From a virus: DNA of 40,113 nt. Location of the stretch: positions 1-40,113 of IMG/VR virus record IMGVR_UViG_3300036820_000040; one strand, 5' to 3'. Below are positions 133 through 34,407 of the stretch, in pieces. The notes under the pieces are model-generated. The model worked only from the letters and a program-made list of their open reading frames with translations, was not told the origin of the DNA and ran no database searches. Position numbers and translations under genes: made by a program. Positions within the stretch are counted from its first letter, which is position 1, and every line of letters starts with the position of its first letter.

Positions 133-1496
133 CAGCCCCGCGACGCCACCTCGTCGCGAAACTGGCGGAGGGCAATCAGAAGCGCGACCTCGAAGGCCTG
201 GATCTCCAACGCGACTTCGAGCCGGTCGTAATCGAACACGTGGGGCGTGGCGTTCGGACGCCAGGCGATTCCAACCCAATGACACAACCGCATTCCCACG
301 TCGATGCCGAACGTGATGCGCGTCGCATCGGCCGGGATCACGCCGCGGGCCAGGGGAAGCGTGCGGGCGGTGATGATGTTCGCCTGCAGCCCGACGACAT
401 CGACCGCATCCGGAGCCTGGGGGATGGCCCATTTGAACTGCTTGAGCGCCTTGTCTTTGGAGGCGTCCTCCGGGTTGCGCGCCGCTTCCCATTCCTGTTG
501 CCCGACCAAGCCCATGTGAACGGTCAGGTTGTTCAGACAATTCCAGCGGAAGGCGAGCGTGTTGGACCGCGGGGCATCGCCGGTGATCTTCCCGTCGGCG
601 TCAATCTCCTGACCCCGGTGAAGCAGGACGGCGTCACGGTTGGCCGCGTGCCGCTCGGCTTCATCCCAGAGCACTCCGCAGCTCGGGCAAGCAACCCGCG
701 TCCTCTCCCGCGCGGCCATCACATCCGGGGCATCCTGCCAACCGACCAGGTGCTTGCGTTCGGGCGAAACATACTGGCGGCAAGAGGGGCATCGGATGGC
801 GATGCGGCTGGCGGTACCGGCGCAGTATTCTTTCCATGTGCGGCCGGCTTCCGTGGAAACCGTGCATTCCATGAACACGCGCGCCTGATCCGAAAAGGCC
901 TCGGTCCGGGCGGCGATCTGGCTGATCGGGTCGGTCTCCCGGCTCCCCTTGCCGGCTTGATCCATCTTGTCGGTCTCGGTGATCACCGCGACGCGCGTCG
1001 TGGCGCCCGAGCGTTTCTCGTCGCCGCCGCCGCCAGTCATGAACTTGAGCGAAGGACCGTGCTTGAACTCGATCGACTCGAAGTCGCCGCCGCGGCTGCC
1101 GGCGCCGGTCTCGGGCATGAGGCTGGCATAGTGCGATGCTTTGATCGCCGGCAGCAGGTCCTTGTTCCACTTGTCACGCGCCATCTCGGCCGTGGGCACG
1201 CCGCAGATCACGTCCTCCTGCACTTCAAAAAGGTGGTACATGATGACGATCACGAAGCCGTGAAGCGTCTTGCCCGACTGGACCGCGCCGGTGATGACGA
1301 AGCGGATCCACCCGTTCACGGCGGCCGTCTCGATGGCGCCAAACCAGAGCAGGGAGATCGATGGGTTGGTCTGGTCCGAGAACTTACGGTTTTTTCTTGG
1401 CCCGGTTGCCAGGACGATTTCCCCTTGGGCGAACTCCCGCATGCTTCGCAGGCGCGGGGCTCTTGCGCGCTGGGCGAGGCTCAGCAGGAGCTGCAT
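1..1496 (-). CDS. terL: Large terminase subunit, GpA family (N-terminal 499 residues; gene continues at 39981)
   Basis: Packaging motor ATPase and nuclease that cuts concatemeric DNA and pumps it into the prohead. Reading the minus strand from 1496, the frame stays open to base 1 and continues in the same frame at 39981 down to a stop at 39534, giving 647 aa, normal for the GpA/lambda gpA family. Walker A is GAVQSGKT (about residues 70-77), the Walker B-like strand is VAVITETD (about 169-176), and paired CPSC motifs form the zinc-finger-like insert seen in this family. GIDVG begins the nuclease domain. I chose ATG 1496 because AGGA lies 7 nt upstream; ATG 1442 is the alternative. The start overlaps the end of the small subunit by 113 bp. 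Confidence 0.93.
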   Translation of the reverse strand, partial: MQLLLSLAQRARAPRLRSMREFAQGEIVLATGPRKNRKFSDQTNPSISLLWFGAIETAAVNGWIRFVITGAVQSGKTLHGFVIVIMYHLFEVQEDVICGVPTAEMARDKWNKDLLPAIKASHYASLMPETGAGSRGGDFESIEFKHGPSLKFMTGGGGDEKRSGATTRVAVITETDKMDQAGKGSRETDPISQIAARTEAFSDQARVFMECTVSTEAGRTWKEYCAGTASRIAIRCPSCRQYVSPERKHLVGWQDAPDVMAARERTRVACPSCGVLWDEAERHAANRDAVLLHRGQEIDADGKITGDAPRSNTLAFRWNCLNNLTVHMGLVGQQEWEAARNPEDASKDKALKQFKWAIPQAPDAVDVVGLQANIITARTLPLARGVIPADATRITFGIDVGMRLCHWVGIAWRPNATPHVFDYDRLEVALEIQAFEVALLIALRQFRDEVASRGWYRQGEENGEPLTPSLVLVDSGWSQTTVLTFCAESPGYCATKGF

Positions 1497-2001
1497 CGTC
1501 CCGTCCTGCGGGGACAGGTCCGAGCATGTGCCGCCAGTTCCGCACTGCTTCGTCGATGGCTTCGATGAGGACGTTGCCGGCATCATTTCCATGCAGCCGG
1601 GTGATCGTCTCCCCGGCCTTGCGGAGGATCGAAGCGAACCGGGCGATCGCGGGTTCGAGCTTGTCCAGGCGAACCACCTGGGCGGTGCGCTCGGAAAGTT
1701 CGAGTTCCGCAAGCTGCGCCCGGGCCAGGCGGAAGCGCTCCATCGCCGGCGAGTCAGCGCCTTCGGTCATCAGCGCTTCGGCGTCGCGCTCGTCTGCACG
1801 TTCGACGGCGCGATCGCGCGCGTCGAGGAATCTGCGGCCGTGCAGGAACACGATTCGATCGACGCGCTTGATCGCATCTTCGGGGACGCGCTCGCGGAGC
1901 TCGTCCACCTGGCGGGGGTTCACGTTCAGAACCCGCGCCATCTCGGTTCGCGTGAACCATTCAGGGCCGGGGCGTCGCGGTTTCTTCTTGGCGCTGGCCA
2001 T
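1384..2001 (-). CDS. terS: Small terminase subunit (Nu1-like)
   Basis: DNA-recognition subunit of the packaging terminase, 205 aa. The N-terminal part reads as a helix-turn-helix (EWFTRTEMARVLNVNPRQVD, about residues 14-33), as in Nu1-type proteins. A central helical region with AQLAELELSERTAQV probably oligomerises, and the C-terminal tail is very basic and Ala/Pro-rich. It lies directly upstream of and overlaps the large subunit, the Nu1-A arrangement of lambda. No strong Shine-Dalgarno is seen before the ATG, so the start is the least certain part. Confidence 0.85.
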   Translation of the reverse strand: MASAKKKPRRPGPEWFTRTEMARVLNVNPRQVDELRERVPEDAIKRVDRIVFLHGRRFLDARDRAVERADERDAEALMTEGADSPAMERFRLARAQLAELELSERTAQVVRLDKLEPAIARFASILRKAGETITRLHGNDAGNVLIEAIDEAVRNWRHMLGPVPAGRDDAAPAEPRPARKSPAPAKHAGVRPRGNRPGNRAKKKP

Positions 2002-2147: not shown

Positions 2148-2903
2148 TCACGGTGACTGCCTGCCCAATGCTTGATTGACACTGAATGGCGTCCCGTTCG
2201 ACGGCGTGCTGAACGTCGACCACGCGCCTCCATCAATCCGAACCTGGTAACTGCTGGACTGCATGAAGGGTCGGCTGATGGAGCCGCTCGGTCCGCTGTC
2301 GACCGGGACGGTGCGACGCATGAACGCCCCACCGGGCGCGCCCTGCGTTGTGCTGATCAGTTGGAACTCGACAAGCGTGTTCACCATCGCGTTGCCGTCG
2401 CCGTCGTAGACGGTCATGGTGCCGACCACCTGGTTGGCATTGGGGCTCAGCAGCAGCGACGCTGGCACAGTCGATCCAACGAACGTAGTGCCGTTGATCT
2501 CAACGATGTTCGCATCCGCATCGCCCACAAACCAATCGCCGGATCTGAGGAAACCGAACGCGCCGCGCGTCCGGCGCACCGTGGTGCTCGCAGCGTACGC
2601 CGCGGCGACGCCAGCCATGTTCGTCAGGTCTGTGCCGGTCGGGACCTGACGCGCTTGATATTCGTAAGGCAGCGTCACGGCGTCCGGAAGCTCGGGGCTC
2701 ACGATCACCTGGCCCGAATAATCGCCGGTGGATCCATCCTCGCTCAGGGGAACGTCGAGCGTGGTGCCGGCCGTCGCCAATGTCCAACCATTGTCAGTCG
2801 TGATCCCGGCCGGCCACGTGACGCCGGCGGGCGCGAAGAGACGCGCCACGACCTTCTGGCCCGTGGGAGCAGCGACACCGAGTATGCGCACCGTTGCGGA
2901 CAT
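2148..2903 (-). CDS. Putative virion/tail-associated protein
   Basis: 251 aa, no family recognised. The sequence is Ser/Thr/Gly/Val-rich with many short beta-type stretches (for example VVARLFAPAGV and VVGTMTVYDGDGNAMVNTLV), resembling beta-sandwich tail or appendage proteins. It ends with QVRIDGGAWSTF and a short polar tail. It sits downstream of the tail-fibre gene and upstream of terS in the same minus-strand run, consistent with a host-range or baseplate accessory protein. The function is inferred from position and composition only. Confidence 0.65.
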   Translation of the reverse strand: MSATVRILGVAAPTGQKVVARLFAPAGVTWPAGITTDNGWTLATAGTTLDVPLSEDGSTGDYSGQVIVSPELPDAVTLPYEYQARQVPTGTDLTNMAGVAAAYAASTTVRRTRGAFGFLRSGDWFVGDADANIVEINGTTFVGSTVPASLLLSPNANQVVGTMTVYDGDGNAMVNTLVEFQLISTTQGAPGGAFMRRTVPVDSGPSGSISRPFMQSSSYQVRIDGGAWSTFSTPSNGTPFSVNQALGRQSP

Positions 2904-2911
2904 TGGACGGT

Positions 2912-3187
2912 TTACCGTGCGATCTTCAGGAGCGCGTTAAGCAGCGCGTTGCTGTTGGCGGTGAGCACGGCGTTGACGGCTGCAATGGCGCTCATGGCGG
3001 CGGCAATGTCGGCCGGCGCCAGGTCGGCGACAGAGCCGGTGAAATCGGCCGTCGTCAGTGCGGCGGCAAAGTACGCCTGATACTTGCTGGCGTCGGCTGC
3101 GGCATCTTCGATGGCTGCGATCCCAGCCAGCGCGTGGGCGCAGGCGCCGACGATGAAGTTGCGGTTGACGGGATTGGGTCCGGGCAT
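2912..3187 (-). CDS. Small alanine-rich protein of unknown function
   Basis: 91 aa, rich in Ala and predicted mostly helical, with no signal peptide or clear membrane segment. AGGA lies 8 nt before the ATG. It sits between the fibre gene and the 251-aa protein with about 10-bp gaps on each side, so it is probably co-transcribed and may be a fibre chaperone or small virion part. No family is recognised. Confidence 0.65.
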   Translation of the reverse strand: MPGPNPVNRNFIVGACAHALAGIAAIEDAAADASKYQAYFAAALTTADFTGSVADLAPADIAAAMSAIAAVNAVLTANSNALLNALLKIAR

Positions 3188-3197
3188 GGAGGTGTTC

Positions 3198-4253
3198 CTA
3201 ATAATGGGTTTCGACGCTCACGACGTAAACGACCCACTGAATCTCGGTGTTGCTGCCGTCGCCGAGCAATTGCAGTTGGGCGTGATAGTTGTTCGGGGTT
3301 TGGATATTGACCGACCATCCGCTCGCGCCCCCCGTGTACTGGTCAGTGCCGACTAGGGAAATGACTGCCTCTTCGTTCCAGGGGTAGACAATGCCCTGCC
3401 GTTCGCCTCCGAAGATCGCGCCATCACCGCGTTGGGCGCAAATGATCAAGTGAAAAGTGGACGCAACCCCGGCCGGCAGAGTCCAAGGAATGGATTGCGC
3501 GTCGCCGTCCACGAATGGCTCGATCGCCGATCCGTTGTTAGGGTCGGTGATCCTCAGCAGGAATTCCGTCTTCTGGGCAGACGCCGGATTGGTGAACTGG
3601 CCGTTGGCGATCGCCTTCTGACCGGGCAGATAGGTCACCGCGCCGGCACCGCTGGCGTAATCGCCGCCCTGATTTGCGGTCCCTTGGGAATTTGCGTGTG
3701 ACCTCGCCCCTCCAGCGTGACCACCGCTGTCGGCATGCGCTTCGGCATACGCGGCGATCCCGCTGCTGTCGGCATGCGCGCCGCCGGGATCGGTATAAAT
3801 CAGCCCACCGCTGTCGGCCCAGTCGCCAGAGGAGTCCGGACCTCCCGGCAATCCGCTGTCCTCAAGGTTCCCCGTCTCAGGGTCAAACCACGGCAAATTT
3901 CCCGGCGTGCCTGTGATGACACCGCCTGATTCATCCACCCATCCAGTGTCGTAATTGGCCCCGGAGTTCTTTGCGAGCACCTGTCCGGTTGTCCCGCCAG
4001 CCGGAACGCCGACGCCGTTCGTGCCATTCGTGCCGTTCGTTCCGTTGCTCCCGTTGGTTCCAGCGTTGGCCAGAAGCTGCCACTTCGTGCCATCGGTCCC
4101 AGGCGTGACGCCCGTGCTTCCAACCAGGGCGAGGTAACTGCTGCCGGCGTTGGTGGTGCCGTCGCCCTGCGCGTACGCGGTGGCGCCGTTGTAGGCGCCG
4201 CGCCAGTTGATGCTGGCTCCCGGTACGTAGGTGTTCTGGCCGCCCTGGATCAT
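3198..4253 (-). CDS. Tail fibre protein with carbohydrate-binding-like N-terminus
   Basis: 351 aa. Residues about 15-60 (YVPGASINWRGAYNGATAY) look like the short aromatic carbohydrate-binding module found on phage fibres. A GTNGSNGTNGTNGTNG collagen-like run follows, then the common fibre segment VPAGGTTGQVLAKNSGANY. The middle is Gly/Ser/Asp/His repeat-rich (AHADSSG, AHADSGG) and the C-terminus is a beta-rich domain. It probably forms a trimer at the tail tip and binds the cell surface. Its ATG overlaps the stop of the glycosidase-like gene (ATGA), indicating coupling. Confidence 0.82.
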   Translation of the reverse strand: MIQGGQNTYVPGASINWRGAYNGATAYAQGDGTTNAGSSYLALVGSTGVTPGTDGTKWQLLANAGTNGSNGTNGTNGTNGVGVPAGGTTGQVLAKNSGANYDTGWVDESGGVITGTPGNLPWFDPETGNLEDSGLPGGPDSSGDWADSGGLIYTDPGGAHADSSGIAAYAEAHADSGGHAGGARSHANSQGTANQGGDYASGAGAVTYLPGQKAIANGQFTNPASAQKTEFLLRITDPNNGSAIEPFVDGDAQSIPWTLPAGVASTFHLIICAQRGDGAIFGGERQGIVYPWNEEAVISLVGTDQYTGGASGWSVNIQTPNNYHAQLQLLGDGSNTEIQWVVYVVSVETHY

Positions 4254-5425
4254 GGCTGGGTTGTCGCAGCCGCTTTCGCGATCGCGTTGAGCGCCGCGCC
4301 TTGCTGCAGGACCTGCGCCTGCAGGGCGGCGATTTGTTGCTGTGGCGATGATGGCAATGGCGTCTGCAGGATCACCTTGTTGCCGGCCGGCGCGACGAGC
4401 ACCGCGTATGCGCCCCAGGGAGCGAGGGTGACGCCGTCGTAAACGGCCGCCGCCGGCGTGTCGTTGAAAAGCAGATTCAATTGGCCCGCTGAGCTGGTGG
4501 TGGTGGCATACAAGAAGCCCTGGGCGGGGGAGCTGCTGCCACGGAACCCGGAACCGAGGTAAGGGGCGATCGTGAGCAGCTCAGCGCTGAGCTGCGGAAG
4601 ACCCGCGGCAATTTCGGGTGGCGTGCCGTCGAAGGTGAACACCCCACCAGGTCCAAACTGGCACGGGAAGAAGCAGATGCCGCCGGTCACGCCGGAGAAG
4701 ATCGCGTTGTACGATTCGTATCGCACCGCGCCGAGGGTTGGGGTGAGGCTGGCGGGGTGAAGCTGCTGACTCGTTTCGATGAAGGCGAATTGCGGCTTCG
4801 CGCCGCTCCATGTGAGCATGCGCGCGACGGCGGATCCGGAGGAGCTGAGCGGGACCAGTGATTGAAGCCCCCAGTCGTACGGGTAGACGTCCGTGCCGAG
4901 CCAATCGCCACTCGTGAGCAGCGGCGTGTAGTTGGCCTGGGTGAGACCGCCCTGGTAACCCAGCACGCGGCTGCCGTCGCAGTTCAGGAAGACAGGCCGC
5001 TTCGGGGCGACGGCTTTGTATGACAGATAGTTGGCGCTCAACGTCGACGCCGGCACCGCGTTGTAGTCCGGTTCATCCGGCTGGTTCCACGCGACCAGGT
5101 GCGGGGTGGCGTTGTCCGCCGCCAAGGTGCCGATCGGCTGCCGGATCTGCCAGAGCCCGAGCTGCTCGGCCGCGGCGACCCACTGCTGCAGCACCGCCGG
5201 CGTCCAGGTGGATCCAGTTGGCGCGTCCCACAGACAATTGCACCCGCGCGCGATCCACGTGGGGAAATTTTCCTTCGGCTGCTGCCAGACCCCGATGAAA
5301 AACGGCGGAGGAGCTGGTTGAGTGGCCGGAGCGGTGGTCGCGGCCGCGGCGGCACGCGCAGATGTACGGTTCCCCCCTGGGGAAAGTGCAACAACAAGGG
5401 CGAAAAACAGGAGGAAACGCTTCAT
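4250..5425 (-). CDS. Secreted TIM-barrel glycoside-hydrolase-like protein
   Basis: 391 aa. A Sec signal peptide is clear (MKRFLLFFALVVALS, with Ala-rich cleavage zone to about residue 28), followed by a planctomycete-style Thr/Ala/Pro/Gln linker. The body resembles clan GH-A hydrolases: the candidate acid/base Glu is in WNQPDEPD (E118), the candidate nucleophile in FAFIET (E217), with TDVYPYDW between them. The last 40 residues (QQQIAALQAQVLQQ) predict a short coiled coil for oligomerisation. GGAG lies 7 nt before ATG 5425; longer upstream reading lacks coding character. It is flanked by a fibre gene and a membrane protein, so roles in envelope degradation at exit or as a tail depolymerase are both possible. 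Substrate unknown. Confidence 0.75.
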   Translation of the reverse strand: MKRFLLFFALVVALSPGGNRTSARAAAAATTAPATQPAPPPFFIGVWQQPKENFPTWIARGCNCLWDAPTGSTWTPAVLQQWVAAAEQLGLWQIRQPIGTLAADNATPHLVAWNQPDEPDYNAVPASTLSANYLSYKAVAPKRPVFLNCDGSRVLGYQGGLTQANYTPLLTSGDWLGTDVYPYDWGLQSLVPLSSSGSAVARMLTWSGAKPQFAFIETSQQLHPASLTPTLGAVRYESYNAIFSGVTGGICFFPCQFGPGGVFTFDGTPPEIAAGLPQLSAELLTIAPYLGSGFRGSSSPAQGFLYATTTSSAGQLNLLFNDTPAAAVYDGVTLAPWGAYAVLVAPAGNKVILQTPLPSSPQQQIAALQAQVLQQGAALNAIAKAAATTQP

Positions 5426-5721
5426 GGAACGGCTCCGGTGCGCGTGCGGGGCTGCAAATAGGGGTCGGTGCGGTCCATCAGAACCTTCACGTCGCCGGCC
5501 ATCTCCGCAACCATGTCGTGAGTTTCCTTCTCCTGGGCACGCAGCTCGGAGATCTGCCGATCGTGCGCCTCGGTGATCTCTTTGAGCGTGAAGAAGGCGC
5601 CGGACACCGAAACGACGATCGTCAGAAGCGTCACCAGCAGCGACGGCGTCCAGGGGTTCCGCGCGCGGCGGTCCGTGGAAATGGGATCGAGCGTTCCGCT
5701 GAGGGTTCGTGCGCTGGACAT
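5422..5721 (-). CDS. Small membrane protein with coiled coil (holin or inner spanin candidate)
   Basis: 99 aa. One hydrophobic segment (PSLLVTLLTIVVSVSGAFF, about residues 26-44) is followed by a charged helix (KEITEAHDRQISELRAQEKE) of coiled-coil type. An N-terminal anchor plus periplasmic coiled coil is the layout of inner spanins (Rz); small one-pass holins look similar. It overlaps the secreted glycosidase-like gene by ATGA and follows the lipase, so it belongs to the presumed exit cassette. A choice between spanin and holin cannot be made from sequence. Confidence 0.7.
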   Translation of the reverse strand: MSSARTLSGTLDPISTDRRARNPWTPSLLVTLLTIVVSVSGAFFTLKEITEAHDRQISELRAQEKETHDMVAEMAGDVKVLMDRTDPYLQPRTRTGAVP

Positions 5722-5743
5722 GATCCACCGGGGGGAGCGAGGT

Positions 5744-6517
5744 TCAGGAATGAACCACGGCGACCGAGGCCTGGAGGGCCAGCAGCGCGGAGTGGTATTG
5801 CTCGATCGAGTGCGCCTGAATCGGCAGCTCGCCCCGCGCGTCGCTGGCCAGATCATCCTTGAGCTGATCCCAGGGGCCTTCACCGATCGCGAGAGTGCCA
5901 TCGGGGCGGAGGTGGCAGAAGGTGCCGCAATGTTTGTACATCGCCACCTGCAGCGTGCAGGGCGGGATGAATGGGACGCCCGGCGGCAGGTGGGGCACGA
6001 TGTCATCCTCATGCACGATCCGATATCTCGGCACCTGGCACGAGGACGCAGACGCGTGGTTGCGGTGGCGTGGGGCCCCAAAGTCATACGCGGGCATCAC
6101 CTTGAACCCGTCCCGCGCCAGCCACTCCAACGTAATTGAGCTTTCAGCGGCGCCTTTGGAATGACCGCCGCCGGCGACGGGGCAATCTTTGGAGAGCTTG
6201 GCCTTGACCTGGTCGAACACGCTGGAAGCACTCACGAACAAACCGCGGTGCAATTTGCCAGGTGCGTAAGGGTCAGCGACCAGGCCGGCGTTGAGATCGG
6301 TGAGCCAGTCCCGAATTTTCTCCGGGTTGGTTCCCTTGTGGAACACATACTGGCAATCCGTCGCCTGCACCACCGCGGCCGTGGCCAGGCCGCTGAAGAT
6401 GAAATCCACCTTGCATCGCGGGAAGAGGACTTCCAGCGGGGTCGCGTCGTCGTAGACGGCCGCGGAGCCGGCGCAGGCGATGAGCGCGCGGGGCAGATCG
6501 AAGGGGACTTCATTCAT
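5744..6517 (-). CDS. Class 3 lipase family protein (alpha/beta hydrolase)
   Basis: 257 aa. The nucleophile elbow GGGHSKGAA (Ser120) matches the GxSxG signature of fungal-type class 3 lipases. The other triad members are probably Asp171/172 in HEDDIVPHL and His236 in AHSIEQYH near the C-terminus, spaced as in the family. No signal peptide is visible, so export would need a holin, or the enzyme acts in the cytoplasm or virion. The start at 6517 (MNEVPF) was chosen because earlier in-frame codons run into the preceding gene. It probably hydrolyses membrane or outer-membrane lipid esters during lysis; substrate not shown by sequence. Confidence 0.85.
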   Translation of the reverse strand: MNEVPFDLPRALIACAGSAAVYDDATPLEVLFPRCKVDFIFSGLATAAVVQATDCQYVFHKGTNPEKIRDWLTDLNAGLVADPYAPGKLHRGLFVSASSVFDQVKAKLSKDCPVAGGGHSKGAAESSITLEWLARDGFKVMPAYDFGAPRHRNHASASSCQVPRYRIVHEDDIVPHLPPGVPFIPPCTLQVAMYKHCGTFCHLRPDGTLAIGEGPWDQLKDDLASDARGELPIQAHSIEQYHSALLALQASVAVVHS

Positions 6518-6533
6518 GGTGGCTGGGAGTCGC

Positions 6534-6788
6534 TCAGATCTCGGCCATCTGGCCTTCGATCGAGGCGACATGCGATCTGAAGTGTTGGAGCAACGCATCA
6601 CGAAGCCATTCGGCTTCGTCGCCGGCGAAAGTCTCGAAGGTCTGCCTTCCGCCGCCGATCGACATCCGGAGGTGCCCGTCCGGAATCGCCAGGTCCTGCA
6701 CGGCCTGCTCGAACTTGGCGAGGCGACGCTTCAAAGCGTCGTATCGTGAGACCCGTTTCGCCTGGTCGAGGTGCTCCAGATCGTTCAC
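6534..6788 (-). CDS. Small conserved-looking protein of unknown function
   Basis: 84 aa, starting at a GTG (6788) preceded by AAGGGGGG with good spacing; the GTG shares GTGA with the stop of the upstream 67-aa gene, a translational-coupling signature. It is mostly charged helix (DALKRRLAKFEQAVQDLA) followed by GGGRQTFETFAGDEAEW. No membrane segment and no recognised domain. Its position directly before the lipase suggests a virion or lysis accessory role, but this is only context. Confidence 0.62.
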   Translation of the reverse strand: MNDLEHLDQAKRVSRYDALKRRLAKFEQAVQDLAIPDGHLRMSIGGGRQTFETFAGDEAEWLRDALLQHFRSHVASIEGQMAEI

Positions 6789-6988
6789 CGGCGCCCCCCT
6801 TGATAGCAGGCCCACGATGGCTTCTTCTTCCGCCGGCGGTGAACGGCCGGGCCGCTGTTGCGGTGCATCCCATTCACCCCGCGATCATCGCTGGCCAGGA
6901 TCATGCTCGACAGAACCGCCCACATTCGGTTCAGTGCGCTCGTGCGAGACAGCGCGTTAGGCGACGTTGCAAATAGAGCTCGGGCCAT
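6785..6988 (-). CDS. Small basic protein of unknown function
   Basis: 67 aa. GGAG lies 8 nt before the ATG, and the stop overlaps the next start as GTGA, both favouring a real gene. The N-terminal half is mildly hydrophobic (RMWAVLSSMILAS) and the C-terminal half very basic (HRRRKKK). It could be a short membrane-associated lysis factor, but no family is recognised. Confidence 0.5.
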   Translation of the reverse strand: MARALFATSPNALSRTSALNRMWAVLSSMILASDDRGVNGMHRNSGPAVHRRRKKKPSWACYQGGRR

Positions 6989-7000
6989 CGACTGGTCTCC

Positions 7001-7516
7001 CTACGCTGGTTTGGCCGCCGCTGGCTTGGCGCCGGCGGCGATCGTGGCTTTGTGCGTGCTCGTCTGCAGAGCCATGCCAGCCCCGCTGAGCAAGTAGGGA
7101 AGCAGGAGTGAGATGAGCGGCGCATAGGGAGATGGGATCGCACTCACCGCCGTCGACGCGGCCGATTGCACCGCGGGATTGCTCAGCACTTGGCCAGCGT
7201 TGCTCCCCGCCGCTTGCACGACCGCGGCGGCGGTCTGGGCGCTGGCCAGCGCGGCGTTGGCTTCGGCTTCGACGGTCTGGGCCTGCTGCAGGACCTGCTC
7301 AGCCTGGGCGTAGGAGGGACCGGTGGTTGGACCAGCTGCGAGCTGCTTCTGCGCGGCGGTCGTCGCCGCGATCGCGGCCTGGTCGGCAGCCTGCAGTTGG
7401 CCGATTGCCGTCTGGGCTTGCGTTGCCTGGCTGCTGCAGCCGGCGGTGCTGAGGAGCATGACGGCAGCAGCGAAGAGCATGAGCGCCGCGGCAAGGAACG
7501 TGCTTCGAGTTTTCAC
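7001..7516 (-). CDS. Ala-rich lipoprotein with C-terminal membrane segment (spanin-like)
   Basis: 171 aa from a GTG preceded by GGAGG. A typical lipoprotein signal peptide (residues 1-27) ends in the lipobox STAGC with Cys27 as the lipidated residue. The middle is a long Ala/Gln helix (about 30-125), then a second hydrophobic segment near the end (YAPLISLLLPYLLSGAGMAL, 131-150) and a short basic tail. Outer-membrane lipoprotein signal plus C-terminal transmembrane helix is the plan of unimolecular spanins such as T1 gp11. If instead the 5422 protein is an inner spanin, this could be its outer partner. Function is inferred from topology. Confidence 0.75.
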   Translation of the reverse strand: MKTRSTFLAAALMLFAAAVMLLSTAGCSSQATQAQTAIGQLQAADQAAIAATTAAQKQLAAGPTTGPSYAQAEQVLQQAQTVEAEANAALASAQTAAAVVQAAGSNAGQVLSNPAVQSAASTAVSAIPSPYAPLISLLLPYLLSGAGMALQTSTHKATIAAGAKPAAAKPA

Positions 7517-7620
7517 GACGCCTCCGAAGGGGAAGAGTGACGCGGCCGGCGTGTCGGCACCTGGTGTGGTCACACCTGGTCCGTCACGGCCGCATTGACC
7601 GAAAGACAAGTCGGCCGGAG

Positions 7621-7654
7621 AAAAACCCGGCCACGCGTCTTACTCCACGTGGCC
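7621..7654 (-). terminator. Rho-independent terminator after the 7670 gene
   Basis: On the minus strand GGCCACG and CGTGGCC form a 7-bp stem with a 12-nt loop, followed after GGG by TTTTT. It separates the 111-aa gene from the lipoprotein gene, so the exit cassette may have partly separate expression. Confidence 0.55.
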
Positions 7655-7669
7655 AGGTTGATGTGACGT

Positions 7670-8005
7670 TCACGATCCGCTGATGGTGTCGCTACCGATC
7701 GACGCCGGCAGAGTGGCAGCCGGGGGCGGCGTGGCGGTCGGCACCAGCGGCTGCAAAACCTGAAACGCCTGGCTCACCTGGCTGGCGGCTCCGGAGACCG
7801 CGCTGGCGGAGCTCGCGTCCGCGGACTGCGCCTGGGCCAGCGCGGTATCGCTGGTCGCCTTGGTGGCGTTGGCGGCGTCGAGTGCGATGGCGGCGGTCAC
7901 GAACTGCTGAGCGGCGATCGTCAAGGCCGACGGCGTCGGGCTGGTGTCGGCGGGAGTGGATCCGGTCGAGTCGGTGGAACGGCAGAGGCGGGGGAAGCGG
8001 TTCAT
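7670..8005 (-). CDS. Ala/Ser/Pro-rich small protein of unknown function
   Basis: 111 aa; AAGGAG lies 5 nt before ATG 8005. After a short basic N-terminus comes a Thr/Ser/Pro linker, then an Ala-rich helix (ALDAANATKATSDTALAQAQ), and a Pro-rich tail. Composition resembles the middle of the neighbouring lipoprotein, so the two may be functionally or evolutionarily linked, but this one lacks a signal peptide. No family recognised. Confidence 0.6.
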   Translation of the reverse strand: MNRFPRLCRSTDSTGSTPADTSPTPSALTIAAQQFVTAAIALDAANATKATSDTALAQAQSADASSASAVSGAASQVSQAFQVLQPLVPTATPPPAATLPASIGSDTISGS

Positions 8006-8103
8006 GGGAGCTCCTTCGAGGGGTTGAGTATCGCGGCTGCCCAGCGCGGTGGTGGCTGTTGCCTTCCAGAATCCGAGCTTCGGCGTCCGCATGGTTTGTG
8101 TGG

Positions 8104-8319
8104 TCAGTTGACGCGGCGGATCTCGACATCGCCGAAAACCAGCTCCGTCTCCGGTTCACCGCGGCCGTTGCGCAACACTTCCTGCGAAACAGGATCGGTC
8201 GCGTAGCGCGTCACGTAGCCTTGGGCCGCGTTCGCACGGACAGCCAACGGCTCCCGAACCCCGTCGCGGTACACCTCATCAAGATGGCTGTCTTTGGTCT
8301 CGCCGGCGATCCAGAGCAT
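8104..8319 (-). CDS. Small protein of unknown function
   Basis: 71 aa, beginning 5 bp after the stop of the 144-aa gene. The C-terminal half (PETELVFGDVEIRRV) is beta-like and the middle contains RYATDPVSQEVLRNGRGEP. Strong third-position GC bias supports coding. The Shine-Dalgarno is weak, suggesting translation coupled to the gene before it. No function is assigned. Confidence 0.58.
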   Translation of the reverse strand: MLWIAGETKDSHLDEVYRDGVREPLAVRANAAQGYVTRYATDPVSQEVLRNGRGEPETELVFGDVEIRRVN

Positions 8320-8324
8320 GGCAT

Positions 8325-8759
8325 TCAGGTTCCGATTGCGGCGACGACGGCGGCCAGCGACTCGGCCAGCGTGATGGTCTTGTCTTCCATCCGCTTGAAT
8401 GTGAGGCGTGATGGACCCTTCTCCTGGGCGCTGATCTTGGCCAGTTCCTTCTCGGAGAAGATCTTTCGGGCCGGCTCGACGTGGACCGCGATCATGCGGA
8501 GGAAATCCACCCTGCTGAGCTTCTTCTGCTCGTAGAGTTTCAGGCAGGCGTCCGTGTCGATCACGGTCTTATCCCCGCCGACCAGGCGGCACCGGAAGAG
8601 GTTCGCCTCGGCGAAGGTGGCCAGCTTGAGCTGCATCGTCTCCTTGATTTCACCCCGAATCGGCTTGGCGAACATGTCGTCAAGCTCTTCGAGGAAGCCC
8701 ACGCGATCAACGTCGGCGCATTTGATCGTCTTGGGCTCTGAGGTTTCGGCTTTGGCCAT
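8325..8759 (-). CDS. Hypothetical protein
   Basis: 144 aa, highly charged and mainly helical (GFLEELDDMFAKPIRGEIKE; KKLSRVDFLRMIAVHVEPARK). No signal peptide, membrane segment or metal motif. It is the first longer gene after a perfect hairpin in the late minus-strand run, ahead of the exit cassette. I recognise no family; a role early in the late programme is only suggested by position. Confidence 0.62.
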   Translation of the reverse strand: MAKAETSEPKTIKCADVDRVGFLEELDDMFAKPIRGEIKETMQLKLATFAEANLFRCRLVGGDKTVIDTDACLKLYEQKKLSRVDFLRMIAVHVEPARKIFSEKELAKISAQEKGPSRLTFKRMEDKTITLAESLAAVVAAIGT

Positions 8760-8776
8760 GGCTCGCTTGTTTTAGA

Positions 8777-8812
8777 AGCCGGCGCGGGCTCTCTCGGAAA
8801 CTCGCGCCGGCT
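8777..8812 (-). terminator. Strong hairpin between two late genes (weak terminator)
   Basis: AGCCGGCGCG and CGCGCCGGCT form a perfect 10-bp stem with a 16-nt loop, just downstream of the 60-aa HTH gene on the minus strand. Only a short U-poor tail (TCTAAAAC) follows, so it may attenuate or protect the transcript rather than fully terminate. Confidence 0.4.
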
Positions 8813-8840
8813 CAGGGAAGGAGGACTGTGGGGCAACTGC

Positions 8841-9023
8841 TCAACGCCGCGGCAGTGATTCGCACAGCTTGCGGACCGCATTGAACGACGCCTGGGCGCG
8901 CCGGTGGAGCTGCTGCAGGCTTTGCCGGTGCTTGAGACCCATGGCCGCCGCGGCCTGGCTCGCCGTATAGCCGCGGTTGAGCAGCTCCACGGCCTGAATC
9001 TGTTTCTGGGTCACAACCGGCAT
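8841..9023 (-). CDS. Small HTH regulator (sigma-70 region 4/LuxR-like helix-turn-helix)
   Basis: 60 aa, almost entirely one DNA-binding domain: VTQKQIQAVELLNRGYTASQ followed by AAAMGLKHRQSLQQLHRR reads as the GYTASQAAAAMGLK helix-turn-helix of sigma region 4 and LuxR-type proteins. I start at ATG 9023; the much longer frame upstream has no coding character and overlaps the 9113 gene. A perfect palindrome lies 32 bp upstream, consistent with autoregulation. It may act as the late-gene activator or as a packaging-linked regulator. Confidence 0.65.
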   Translation of the reverse strand: MPVVTQKQIQAVELLNRGYTASQAAAAMGLKHRQSLQQLHRRAQASFNAVRKLCESLPRR

Positions 9024-9054
9024 AACAAATGTGCTCCCTCTACAAGCAGCGCAC

Positions 9055-9081
9055 GGGTGCAAGTATAAAATGCTTGCACCC
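9055..9081. promoter_or_regulatory. Perfect 9-9-9 palindromic operator
   Basis: GGGTGCAAG, a 9-nt AT-rich spacer, then CTTGCACCC: a perfect 27-bp inverted repeat about 32 bp before the HTH gene start. Read on the minus strand, the spacer contains TATAC, a possible -10 element, so a bound repressor or activator would sit over the promoter. Confidence 0.6.
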
Positions 9082-9112
9082 CCCGAGATTTTTCCCAGAT
9101 TCTTCATGGGAT

Positions 9113-9784
9113 TCAGGCGGCCTGCGGGTCGTCGCCGGCGATCGCCGTCTCCCCCTCGAGAGAATTGAAATCGGCGCTGGTTCGTCCATCGCGCGGAACC
9201 AGCATCGTCAAATGGCGGCTGGGGATGCGCACCAGGCATTCCCGATCCCCGTGGTAGGTCGTCGCATCCGGAGCGACGAACTGGACGGCCCGGCTGGGGC
9301 GCTTGGGCGTCAGGCCGGCTTCCATTGCCTCGGTTTTTTTCATCCGGTGAATGCCCGACCGCATTGGCCATCCCTTGCTGGCTGCCGGGCAGAAGGCGCA
9401 CAAGCATTCGTAGCAGATCCCGTCGCTGGTCAGCATGTGCGCCGGCATCTGCCCGTGGCATCGTCCGCAGCAGGTCGCTGCCTGCGACGGCCGCCAGACT
9501 GCCAGCAGCATCTCTGGTGGAAGATCCAGGAGCAGCGCCAGACGTTCGATCGCTGTCCACGTGTCCCGGCCACACTGGAGAGCCGACGGCGAGTCACCCG
9601 TGTCCCGCCCGTGCTGAGGATCCCGTGGGGCCCGGCGGTCGCGGATTTCCATGCGAGCGTAATGGAGGAACGTCCGGGAGCTCCGAGCCAGGTGGTGCAT
9701 GTGCTCTATCACCTGCAGCAGACCGGGTAGGGGAGAGGGAGAGGGCGCAACTGCATCCGGCACGGCGCAGACGATCCCGGCCAT
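9113..9784 (-). CDS. Cysteine-rich protein, first gene of the late minus-strand run
   Basis: 223 aa from ATG 9784 (MAGIVCAV); an earlier in-frame start at 9832 is possible. A zinc-finger-like cluster CCGRCHGQM-x8-CYECLCAFC lies in the middle (about residues 104-132), preceded by a helix (LALLLDLPPEMLLAVW) that could be protein- or DNA-binding. The C-terminus has VQFVAPDATTYHGDRECLVRIP. No family recognised. As the first gene after the putative late leader it could be a late regulator. Confidence 0.6.
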   Translation of the reverse strand: MAGIVCAVPDAVAPSPSPLPGLLQVIEHMHHLARSSRTFLHYARMEIRDRRAPRDPQHGRDTGDSPSALQCGRDTWTAIERLALLLDLPPEMLLAVWRPSQAATCCGRCHGQMPAHMLTSDGICYECLCAFCPAASKGWPMRSGIHRMKKTEAMEAGLTPKRPSRAVQFVAPDATTYHGDRECLVRIPSRHLTMLVPRDGRTSADFNSLEGETAIAGDDPQAA

Positions 9785-10977: not shown

Positions 10978-10996
10978 AAGCGGGTTTTTTGGAGCG

Positions 10997-11272
10997 TCGC
11001 GCCGGCGCGAATACCCGTGCAAATTCTAGGCAGATTCTTGGGGTCGATGCGATGCAAGCGCGCGCTGGCGCGCGCTTTATGACAAATCTCCAGCTTTCGC
11101 GCCGGCGCGAATACTGTGCAGAATTCGCGCCGGCGCGAAGCTCAACGTGCGGGCGCGCTGGTCAGCACGCTGGCGCGAAAACCGGGCGGTGCAGCTTTCG
11201 CGCCAGCATCCCGAGCTTCGCGCCACCGTGCCGAGCTTCGCGCCCGCATGTTGAGCTTCGCGCTGGCGCGAA
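10997..11272. repeat. Block of TTCGCGCC palindromes and 20-bp iterons (possible origin or partition site)
   Basis: About ten copies of TTCGCGCC/GGCGCGAA in 276 bp with no convincing gene. Two are the full palindrome TTCGCGCCGGCGCGAA (11096-11111 and 11124-11139), with a near copy at 10997-11010. A 12-bp inverted repeat GCTGGCGCGAAA/TTTCGCGCCAGC spans 11169-11207. AAGCGCGCGC-TG-GCGCGCGCTT lies at 11056-11077. Direct repeats starting GAGCTTCGCGC recur every 20 bp at 11213, 11233 and 11253. Iterons two helical turns apart beside a control region suggest an initiator, ParB or repressor array. Confidence 0.7.
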
Positions 11273-11298
11273 TGCTGATCGTCGGCCAATGGCGACAC

Positions 11299-12202: not shown

Positions 12203-13234
12203 ATGCGGCCATTGAACGATCGGCCATGTCCGCCACGAAGCCACCTCATGTATCGCGCCCCTCCCCCACCGCCGCTGTTGCCGCGCGCGGAGGAATTCAA
12301 GGATGTAATCCTCTCTCGCGGACGGACACCCCAGCACGCACACACGACCTGCCGGCACATCAAGGAACTGCTCGCACTGGTCAAAACCATGCGCACGCCT
12401 CCGCGCGATCCTACGCATGCGGACCTCAAGAAATCGGAGGTGGAGCGGGCGCTGGGCGTCTTGCTGGTTCAGGGCCGATCCCACCGAACGCGGATGAGCT
12501 ACGCCCGGTCGCTCAAGAGCTTCCTGCGCTGGATGGGAGAAGAGGACGACGATCTGCGCGACCCGCTGCGAGCGCTCAAGCTGACCAGTTCCGACTGCGA
12601 CCGCCGGCACACGCGTCGGCCGCTGGCCGTCGAAGAACTCTACGCGGTGGTCCGCGCCGCTTACGCAGGCCCGATCTATTCGGGAATCACGGGAAAAGAG
12701 CGTGCGCTCTTGTACATCATCGCCGCATGGACCGGGATGCGCGGAGGCACGCTCCGCAAGTTGACGGTGAGCAGCTTCGCACTCGACAAGCCAATCCCGA
12801 CCGTGCGGGTGCAGGGGAACCAATCGAAGGGACGACGCCCCTACTACCTCGTGATCCGGCCGGACCTCGGCAAGCTGTTGGCCGAACACTTCGGCCAGAA
12901 GATGCCGGCCACGCTCGCCTTCAAAATGCCCGAGCGCACCAAGCTGGTCAGGATGCTGCGGAAGGATCTCAAGGCCGCCGGAGTTGCGTACTGCGACATC
13001 GAGAAGGACGACAGCGGTGTGACGCGGCGCGTGAACGTGCTCGACTTCCACGCGTTCCGTGGCACCTTTGCCAATACGCTGGCCATGGCAGGCAAGCCGA
13101 TCACGTGCGTGCAGGAATTGTGCATGCACGCCGACGCGCAGACCACGATGAAGTTTTACACGCAGGCGCGTCATCTCGATCAGCTCGAAACTTTGAATGC
13201 CCTTCCAGCGATCCCGAAGCTGGAAGCTTCCTGA
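12203..13234 (+). CDS. int: Tyrosine site-specific integrase
   Basis: 343 aa. Catalyses integration and, probably with an unidentified factor, excision. The full active-site set is visible: Arg180 in WTGMRGGTLR, Lys209 in GNQSKGRR, His283 and Arg286 in DFHAFRGTF, His309 in CMHADAQT, and Tyr319 in MKFYTQ. Residues about 30-120 form the core-binding SAM-like domain. ATG 12203 has GGGGA upstream; Met16 is an alternative. attP begins 1 bp after the stop, the usual tight int-attP pairing, and a terminator follows at 13337-13367. Confidence 0.93.
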   Translation: MRPLNDRPCPPRSHLMYRAPPPPPLLPRAEEFKDVILSRGRTPQHAHTTCRHIKELLALVKTMRTPPRDPTHADLKKSEVERALGVLLVQGRSHRTRMSYARSLKSFLRWMGEEDDDLRDPLRALKLTSSDCDRRHTRRPLAVEELYAVVRAAYAGPIYSGITGKERALLYIIAAWTGMRGGTLRKLTVSSFALDKPIPTVRVQGNQSKGRRPYYLVIRPDLGKLLAEHFGQKMPATLAFKMPERTKLVRMLRKDLKAAGVAYCDIEKDDSGVTRRVNVLDFHAFRGTFANTLAMAGKPITCVQELCMHADAQTTMKFYTQARHLDQLETLNALPAIPKLEAS

Positions 13235-28150: not shown

Positions 28151-28585
28151 ATGGCTACAGCGCAACTCTCGCAAGCGGTGGAGTTCCTCCAAACCGGCGC
28201 CGCCCAGGCGATGCTGATCCTGGGCTGGCTTCTCAGCCTGGCGATCGCGTACATCCTGATTCGCCTGGGCGTCCGGCATGGGATCCGCGATGCCGATCGG
28301 GACCGGGAAAAGCGGCGTCCCGGGGCCCTGGTTGAAACCGTCGCCGGCACGCCGGCCGCGATCGGCACGCCGATCATCCGCGGCCGCGACGGTTCTCCCG
28401 TGCTCGCGGCGGCGCCGGCTGGCTTGGTGAACTATCGAATCGACGGCACCAACGATCAGACATCGGGCGCGGTCAAGACCTACATCGCCGCTTCGAGCAT
28501 CGAAGCGGCGCGGCGCAAAGCAAAGGAAAAGGGGATTACCGCGGCGACGATCACACCTGTCTCGCGCGAGCCCTCGCCGGCGTGA
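28151..28585 (+). CDS. Plus-strand membrane protein inserted in the late operon (moron candidate)
   Basis: 144 aa. One membrane helix (AMLILGWLLSLAIAYILIRLG, about residues 20-40, with basic residues after it), a Pro/Ala linker, then YRIDGTNDQTSGAVKTYIAASSIEAARRKAKEKGIT, which resembles the small alpha/beta repeat at the N-terminus of GspF/PilC-like proteins (inference). It is the only plus-strand gene between tail genes; its stop abuts the stop of the 28586 gene and its start is only 21 bp from the tape-measure start. Codon use matches the phage. Probably expressed in the lysogen. Confidence 0.7.
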   Translation: MATAQLSQAVEFLQTGAAQAMLILGWLLSLAIAYILIRLGVRHGIRDADRDREKRRPGALVETVAGTPAAIGTPIIRGRDGSPVLAAAPAGLVNYRIDGTNDQTSGAVKTYIAASSIEAARRKAKEKGITAATITPVSREPSPA

Positions 28586-33343: not shown

Positions 33344-33826
33344 TCAGGGGGCGAAGCTCACCTCGATGGCCAGGTGCTCGGCGACGCGATTCCAGATCCG
33401 GCCCTCGCGACGCCAGCGGTGATCGTGCCGGGTGTCGGGGGCGGAGTCGACGCCGTCCCAATCGGGGGCATTCGTGCGATCGCAGCCGAACACCTGGAGT
33501 CGCTTCACGCCCAGGGCGGAACAGAGCACCAGGGCGGCGGTGACGCTGAACGCCTGCCAGTCCCACGCCGCCGGGCAGAACTCGACCAGGTTCTCCCATC
33601 GCATGCCGTGCGTGCCGAATCTGTCGGCCAGCACTGCGCGCGTACAGACGCGCGGGATCGGGGTGGGCCGGTAGCGATCCCACACATGCGCATCGCCAAA
33701 GACCCACCAATCGCACGGATGAGCCAGCACGGCGCGGTTCACGCCGATCAGAAACTCGAACTCGGGCCGGCGCCGGAACGTCGCCAGGCTGGGCCCAGGG
33801 CAGAGTAATGCGGCGTCGGCGTTCAA
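33344..33826 (-). CDS. DUF115/sialyltransferase-like Rossmann-type protein
   Basis: 160 aa from a TTG overlapping the previous stop (TTGA). Begins ALLCPGPSLATFRR (glycine/proline loop) and continues FEFLIGVNRAVLAHPCDWWVFGDAH, a pattern of DUF115/MptE-like nucleotide-sugar-binding proteins, then LGVKRLQVFGCDR. Coupled to the upstream glycosyltransferase-like gene, so the pair probably makes or transfers a sugar on virion proteins or the cell surface. Confidence 0.65.
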   Translation of the reverse strand: MNADAALLCPGPSLATFRRRPEFEFLIGVNRAVLAHPCDWWVFGDAHVWDRYRPTPIPRVCTRAVLADRFGTHGMRWENLVEFCPAAWDWQAFSVTAALVLCSALGVKRLQVFGCDRTNAPDWDGVDSAPDTRHDHRWRREGRIWNRVAEHLAIEVSFAP

Positions 33827-34407
33827 TGCTTGAGCCTCCGACTGGCCTGCAGATGACGGATGACCGGTGAGAGCGGGCCGTAACGCTTGCCCGACAGGTC
33901 GTCGCCGGCGGCAAAGTCCGGCGCCTGGACGAAGGCATATTCGGGCGGCAACCTGAACAACGAGAGCGCGGAGGGAAACGCTTCCACCACGTCCTGCAAG
34001 TTCCGCTGGTCGCCGTATTTCCCCTTCGGATTCTCCCGGTTGCGCCGGATCCAAGTTTCCAGCAACGCCCGCGCGGCTGGGGTCGGCCCGAAGTAGAGCG
34101 TGCCGCTGAGCAGCTCGTTGCCGAGCCAGTGCGCCGCAAAGTCGCCCATCAGGGGAGAGGAGAAGAGGGCCGGCTCCTGCAGCACGCGGGCATCAGCGTC
34201 GAGCCAAACCATCGGCCGGCCGGGGTAGAGCTCCATCGCATCGCGGATGAAGATCGGCTTGTGCTGGCAGGCGGCTGCCCAGCTCGGGAACGGGTTCAAG
34301 CGAACCACTTCATGAGGCAGTCCGCGCGACTTGAGCGTCTCGACCAACCCGGCGGCTTCGTGCCGGTAGTCGAACGTATAGAAGCTGACGTAAAGCGGAG
34401 GGAGCAT
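33823..34407 (-). CDS. GT-A-type glycosyltransferase-like protein
   Basis: 194 aa. MVWLDADARVLQEP contains a DxD motif in the correct hydrophobic-strand context for nucleotide-sugar glycosyltransferases of the Nucleotid_trans type; KPIFIRDAMELYPGR precedes it and YGDQRNLQDVVEAF follows, as in the family. No membrane segment. It sits inside the head-gene cluster just after the capsid gene, with a hairpin 7 nt before its ATG. Candidate target: capsid or fibre glycosylation. Confidence 0.78.
   Translation of the reverse strand: MLPPLYVSFYTFDYRHEAAGLVETLKSRGLPHEVVRLNPFPSWAAACQHKPIFIRDAMELYPGRPMVWLDADARVLQEPALFSSPLMGDFAAHWLGNELLSGTLYFGPTPAARALLETWIRRNRENPKGKYGDQRNLQDVVEAFPSALSLFRLPPEYAFVQAPDFAAGDDLSGKRYGPLSPVIRHLQASRRLKH

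Follow-up and report, generated by a model that had tools for sequence, protein, structure and literature searches.

The window analysed here is the whole of the IMG/VR record IMGVR_UViG_3300036820_000040 (40113 bases, GC content 64.7%), and the element in question is a run of genes at 4250-7516 on its minus strand. The two ends of the record have 132 nucleotides (nt) in common at 99%, so the record is probably complete. A lambda-like gene set was found in the window, comprising terminase subunits, a lambda-type portal, a ClpP-like head protease, a cement protein and a gpZ-like minor tail protein. An integrase and DNA methylases are also encoded. Read toward the small terminase gene terS, the genes follow one another as lipoprotein-like protein, small protein, class 3 lipase, membrane protein, glycosidase, tail-fibre-like protein, two open reading frames (ORFs; 2912-3187 and 2148-2903), terS and the large terminase gene terL. 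Three ORFs, all on the same strand, separate the glycosidase from terS (Table 1). The run sits upstream of terS, which is the lambda-type position of lysis genes. TerS itself has 31.8% identity with the gene preceding terL in a related locus, G001, and was matched in 49 of 88 related loci. The initial annotation had described a lipase, a glycosidase-like protein, a membrane/coiled-coil protein and a lipoprotein in this run; judged by family matches, gene calls and hydropathy, all four are real.

Table 1. Genes of the 4250-7516 run and related features of the window.
Feature	Position	Strand	Basis
Lipoprotein-like protein, 171 amino acids; possible outer-membrane part of exit machinery	7001..7516	minus	gene call, hydropathy, LSTAGC
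Small protein, 84 amino acids, between lipase and lipoprotein	6534..6788	minus	weak gene call, score 6.2
Class 3 lipase, 257 amino acids, triad S120-D172-H236	5744..6517	minus	Pfam, PHROG and PDB matches, alignment
One-transmembrane coiled-coil-like protein, 99 amino acids; holin or inner-membrane spanin candidate	5422..5721	minus	gene call, hydropathy
Predicted exported GH-A-type glycosidase, 391 amino acids, E118/E217, C-terminal helix	4250..5425	minus	gene call, relatives' profiles, alignment
Tail-fibre-like neighbour, perhaps of the same unit as the glycosidase	3198..4253	minus	phrog_5073 tail fiber, E 2.9e-7
Small terminase subunit (terS), marker of the lambda-type position	1384..2001	minus	homology to G001 gene
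Integrase	12494-13234		family scans

The lipase matched PF01764 with an E value of 3.6e-14 and a score of 53.3 bits, well over the curated cut-off (22), which places it in class 3 as first annotated, and phrog_21992 (esterase/lipase) with an E value of 1.1e-15. Fungal lipases were matched in the PDB, the best at 3.4e-8. Lipase_3 was the sole Pfam match and phrog_21992 the sole PHROG match; the LysB esterase family was not matched. When the protein was aligned with 16 cellular lipases from planctomycete genomes, S120 and D172 were conserved in all 16 and H236 in 15, giving a Ser-Asp-His triad with a GxSxG motif. A search of 294 genomes of the planctomycete phylum detected relatives of the lipase in 27.

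For the glycosidase, we took the ATG at 5425 as the start and set aside the late GTG start of the gene caller. This ATG overlaps the stop of the preceding gene by 4 nt, and the N-terminus, MKRFLLFFALVVALSP..., resembles a Sec signal by eye. The protein had no direct family match of its own in Pfam, PHROGs or a further search, and tblastn against phage records gave no match. Among the 294 genomes, however, five contain a relative that is detected by sequence, and 30 contain one that is detected by profile (E<=1e-6). Single relatives matched Glyco_hydro_42 below the cut-off (best 4.2e-4), and a profile of 20 sequences gave partial matches in the PDB to a GH42 beta-galactosidase (1.6e-4) and to GH158 (8.5e-4). 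In the family alignment, the catalytic glutamates E118 (in DEPD) and E217 were kept in 18 and 15 of 19 relatives, respectively; these 19 were 17 of the 20 relatives with established coordinates (L240, L242 and L243 were left out) and two relatives from viral contigs, L182 and L183. We infer that the two residues lie on strands 4 and 7 of a GH-A barrel. With both glutamates present, the protein appears to belong to a GH-A-type family, and its relatives point to GH42/GH158. The planctomycete GH42/GH158-like proteins fall in the same profile family, but they are cellular and differ from it at the C-terminal end. The initial description of a secreted GH-A-like protein thus holds as far as the relatives, the glutamates and the Sec signal seen by eye are concerned, whereas the barrel fold gained no support from AlphaFold2 models, which were poor (mean predicted local distance difference test scores of 35.7 and 39.6 in two runs).

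The exported glycosidase might itself be the endolysin, that is, a GH-A-type enzyme cutting peptidoglycan after Sec export. Its apparent signal peptide, its intact catalytic pair and its place in the run would agree with this, and profile scans of the window proteins gave no other candidate. But its nearest families are GH42, GH158 and GH2-type enzymes, and no GH-A family is known to cut peptidoglycan, which counts against the idea; we regard it as rather improbable.

Hydropathy also bore out the membrane/coiled-coil protein and the lipoprotein with a C-terminal membrane segment. The former has its transmembrane segment at residues 28-46, with four positive and two negative residues in the N-terminal flank and eight positive and 11 negative residues on the C-terminal side. 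An inner-membrane spanin could look like this, and so could a holin, and the protein is a candidate only; no Pfam or PHROG family was matched above the cut-off, nor was any holin family. In the lipoprotein-like protein, a hydrophobic segment at 7-25 is followed by LSTAGC, which by eye resembles a lipobox. Another hydrophobic segment lies near the C-terminus at 132-150; compared with a spanin pair, this segment is extra. Neither the lipoprotein nor the small protein beside it had a family match in Pfam or PHROGs.

A peptidoglycan hydrolase was looked for throughout the window. Complete Pfam lists cover 44 window proteins, those of the run included, and contained no peptidoglycan-hydrolase family for 10 proteins at E<=1 or for the other 34 at E<=0.05. 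Similarly, for 63 gene candidates none was present among the best 25 of 50 Pfam, 25 of 75 PHROGs and 25 of 29 NCBIfam families, and when the record was searched in six frames, PF01510, PF13539 and PF00959 all gave no match. The profile searches that the initial annotation had called for therefore agree with its claim of a missing endolysin; as they are profile searches only and the glycosidase models are poor, the absence holds at the profile level only. At that level, the peptidoglycan hydrolase of a lambda-type cassette is lacking. The run resembles the lambda cassette (holin, endolysin, Rz/Rz1) in lying on the upstream side of terS/terL and in having a small membrane protein and a lipoprotein. 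It differs in having a lipase and a GH-A-type glycosidase and no lysozyme or transglycosylase match, and its holin and spanin are candidates.

We tentatively interpret 4250-7516 as a cassette by which a lambda-like phage of planctomycetes would leave its host, and in which a lipase and an exported glycosidase would replace a recognisable endolysin. We consider this quite possible, although somewhat short of probable. It is favoured because of the position of the run, its membrane protein and lipoprotein neighbours, the lack of a detectable endolysin in the window and of three main endolysin families in related records, and the recurrence of non-classical enzymes in the same slot among relatives. 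The phage probably infects planctomycete bacteria, a host that the initial annotation had considered: its terminase relatives in genomes come from Planctomicrobium, Phycisphaeraceae, Planctomycetaceae and one Verrucomicrobia metagenome-assembled genome (MAG), so that three of the four are planctomycete MAGs. In the proposed mechanism, the membranes would be opened or bridged by the small membrane protein together with the lipoprotein. This would let out the cytoplasmic lipase, which would cut lipids of the membranes, the outer one included; by then the Sec-exported glycosidase would have loosened envelope or slime glycans. The sequence shows what the genes are, their catalytic residues, their order and overlaps, and that profiles detect no peptidoglycan hydrolase; from this we infer late expression, export, the substrates and exit itself.

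The comparison with related phages was based on terminase alignments, which covered 80 + 80 loci from viral contigs (L008 and L009 being in both sets) and four from genomes. These alignments succeeded where scans of the viral contigs with the glycosidase, the lipase and the large terminase as single proteins gave no relatives. Phage_lysozyme and Peptidase_M15_4 were each found in none of 44 related records (the window included, and several being fragments), and in the same records Amidase_2 was never above the cut-off. A single Amidase_2 match, in G015, was not counted, as it was below the cut-off and had an internal stop. As a control, the same search found Phage_lysozyme in 17 of 28 distant lambda-type, enterobacterial records (16 over the cut-off). 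Upstream genes of 11 relatives numbered 132, of which 83 were scanned against Pfam (10 singly and 73 together); no peptidoglycan hydrolase was seen among the matches listed (for the 73, the best 25 of 31 families).

Six relatives have papain-type peptidases upstream of terS (G007, G017, G019, G020, G030 and L115), which may be candidate lysis enzymes. PF00112 was matched above the cut-off in G007 (L097:1439-2257) and G020, whereas the G019 match fell below it. The G030 protein matched PDB entry 3ois at 1.2e-6 and PF00112 weakly (0.043), and that of G017 matched 3ois at 3.6e-6 and phrog_16701 (peptidase) at 8.8e-6. L115:3676-4527 had no Pfam match and matched the profile built from the five other papain-type proteins at 2.7e-13; those five, being seeds of the profile, match it by construction, and L115 alone is independent there. 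G026 was left out of the six because its profile E value was only 0.049. The gene order in G019 and G030 was read across contig ends, which is an assumption. Another protein in the slot upstream of terS, L136:3912-4871, is matrixin-like (PF00413 at 6.9e-4, below the cut-off) and contains HEFCHNMGLSH, an HExxHxxGxxH motif. It also carries an RCGCPD stretch, which we take to resemble the cysteine switch of matrix metalloproteinases. Two other observations were made on these loci. G001 (L008, L088 and L089) is prophage-like, with chromosome-type flanks by eye, and has a lipoprotein, a holin-like protein of 83 amino acids and a second small lipoprotein before terS. Many related contigs (L147, L149, L151-L155, L157 and others) begin some 600 nt before their terL match, which would suit a packaging end near terS.

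These loci suggest a broader interpretation, which we think unlikely but worth stating: the terminase clade would have given up endolysins, and interchangeable enzymes upstream of terS, either papain-type or matrixin-like peptidases or a lipase with a glycosidase, would attack other envelope layers. If the slot does contain lysis enzymes that spare peptidoglycan, double-stranded DNA phages could no longer be said to require an endolysin as a rule, and the slot would be a source of new enzymes active on the planctomycete envelope. One lipase/glycosidase cassette and six cassettes with papain-type peptidases form a set in which this is directly testable.

Several observations weigh against a host-exit cassette in the window. 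No signal peptide is visible in the lipase. Its family was found in none of 43 related virus records, and the three matches among 47 searched records were all cellular MAGs. The window genes from 2148 to 9343 had no match in the 88 related loci, and no cassette gene was shared; this is a weak negative, because many of the loci hold little sequence upstream of terS. Taken together with the lipase result, it indicates that these genes do not form a lysis unit conserved among the relatives. The poor glycosidase models count on the same side. The G012 and G020 loci carry phrog_1128 proteins, which might be hydrolases of a different kind. They presumably resemble NlpC/P60 enzymes of the permuted type, in which case peptidoglycan hydrolases may be present in the clade after all; the label of phrog_1128 (enoyl-CoA hydratase-like) is odd and was not relied on. 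The two viral relatives of the glycosidase point in the same direction. L182:7980-9149, on a 104-kb contig, has G at E217, no signal and a C-terminal helix. L183:2-4441 has Q at E217, and its glycosidase domain lies within a 1479-amino-acid tail-type protein adjoining phage structural genes. The glycosidase gene also shares 4 nt with the tail-fibre-like gene, so some of the cassette genes may act in entry or in removing polysaccharide.

A serious alternative, which we rank somewhat below host exit, is therefore that the glycosidase and the tail-fibre-like gene serve entry or the degradation of slime or extracellular polysaccharide (EPS), that the lipase is a host-derived accessory and that a classical endolysin of unrecognisable sequence lyses the cell. 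Besides the L182 and L183 versions and the gene overlap, this explanation is favoured by the frequency of lipase and glycosidase relatives in planctomycete genomes (27 and 30 of the 294). PMC12173070 also describes PghP of Bacillus phage PhiNIT1, which is not virion-bound but is freed at lysis and degrades an extracellular polymer. However, the apparent signal peptide of the window glycosidase would be unusual in a virion part, and among the three phage versions the window protein alone has the intact glutamate pair, retaining the nucleophile that both others lack.

Lysogenic conversion, in which the secreted glycosidase and the lipase would benefit the lysogen and not virion release, was considered in view of the integrase and of the resemblance of both enzymes to planctomycete cellular enzymes. 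We judge it improbable: the genes sit away from the integrase, in the minus-strand run that leads to terS/terL and the structural genes, and their overlaps suggest co-expression with these.

Compared with known systems, the host-exit interpretation has precedents for the lipase. In a Pseudomonas syringae siphophage, a GDSL lipase precedes the holin and the endolysin, with surface lipid or EPS as the proposed target (PMC12173070), and the mycobacteriophage LysB, a mycolylarabinogalactan esterase, is a lipolytic enzyme of the lysis cassette that targets the outer lipid layer (PMC5707550, PMC8309991). The former resembles the window in having a lipase in a lysis cassette but belongs to a different lipase family, and LysB differs from the class 3 enzyme of the window, the sole lipase family matched. 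As these sources describe them, both lipases have an endolysin alongside, whereas none was found in the window. Class 3 lipases of Cylindrospermopsis phage are of the same enzyme class (30.3% identity over 44% of the query), but there the gene adjoins a dCTP deaminase and hypothetical genes, unlike the window lipase. In the literature searched, which was mostly outside subscription journals, no paper was found that describes lysis genes for a tailed phage of planctomycetes. Release without lysis, which was also considered, has been reported for a deep-sea planctomycete phage (PMC10945688). A permuted papain-like amidase is named among tail genes in PMC9703825, and papain-like lysis enzymes appear in PMC9862828 only as a reference.

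Three other features of the window were noted. Two overlapping minus-strand ORFs within the head gene cluster (33344-33826 and 33823-34407) are glycosyltransferase-like by eye. A gene-poor stretch at 10989-11277 holds a cluster of inverted repeats, including 68-nt arms at 84% complementarity. Amid the tail genes, an ORF with one transmembrane segment (28151-28585, plus strand) lies on the opposite strand.

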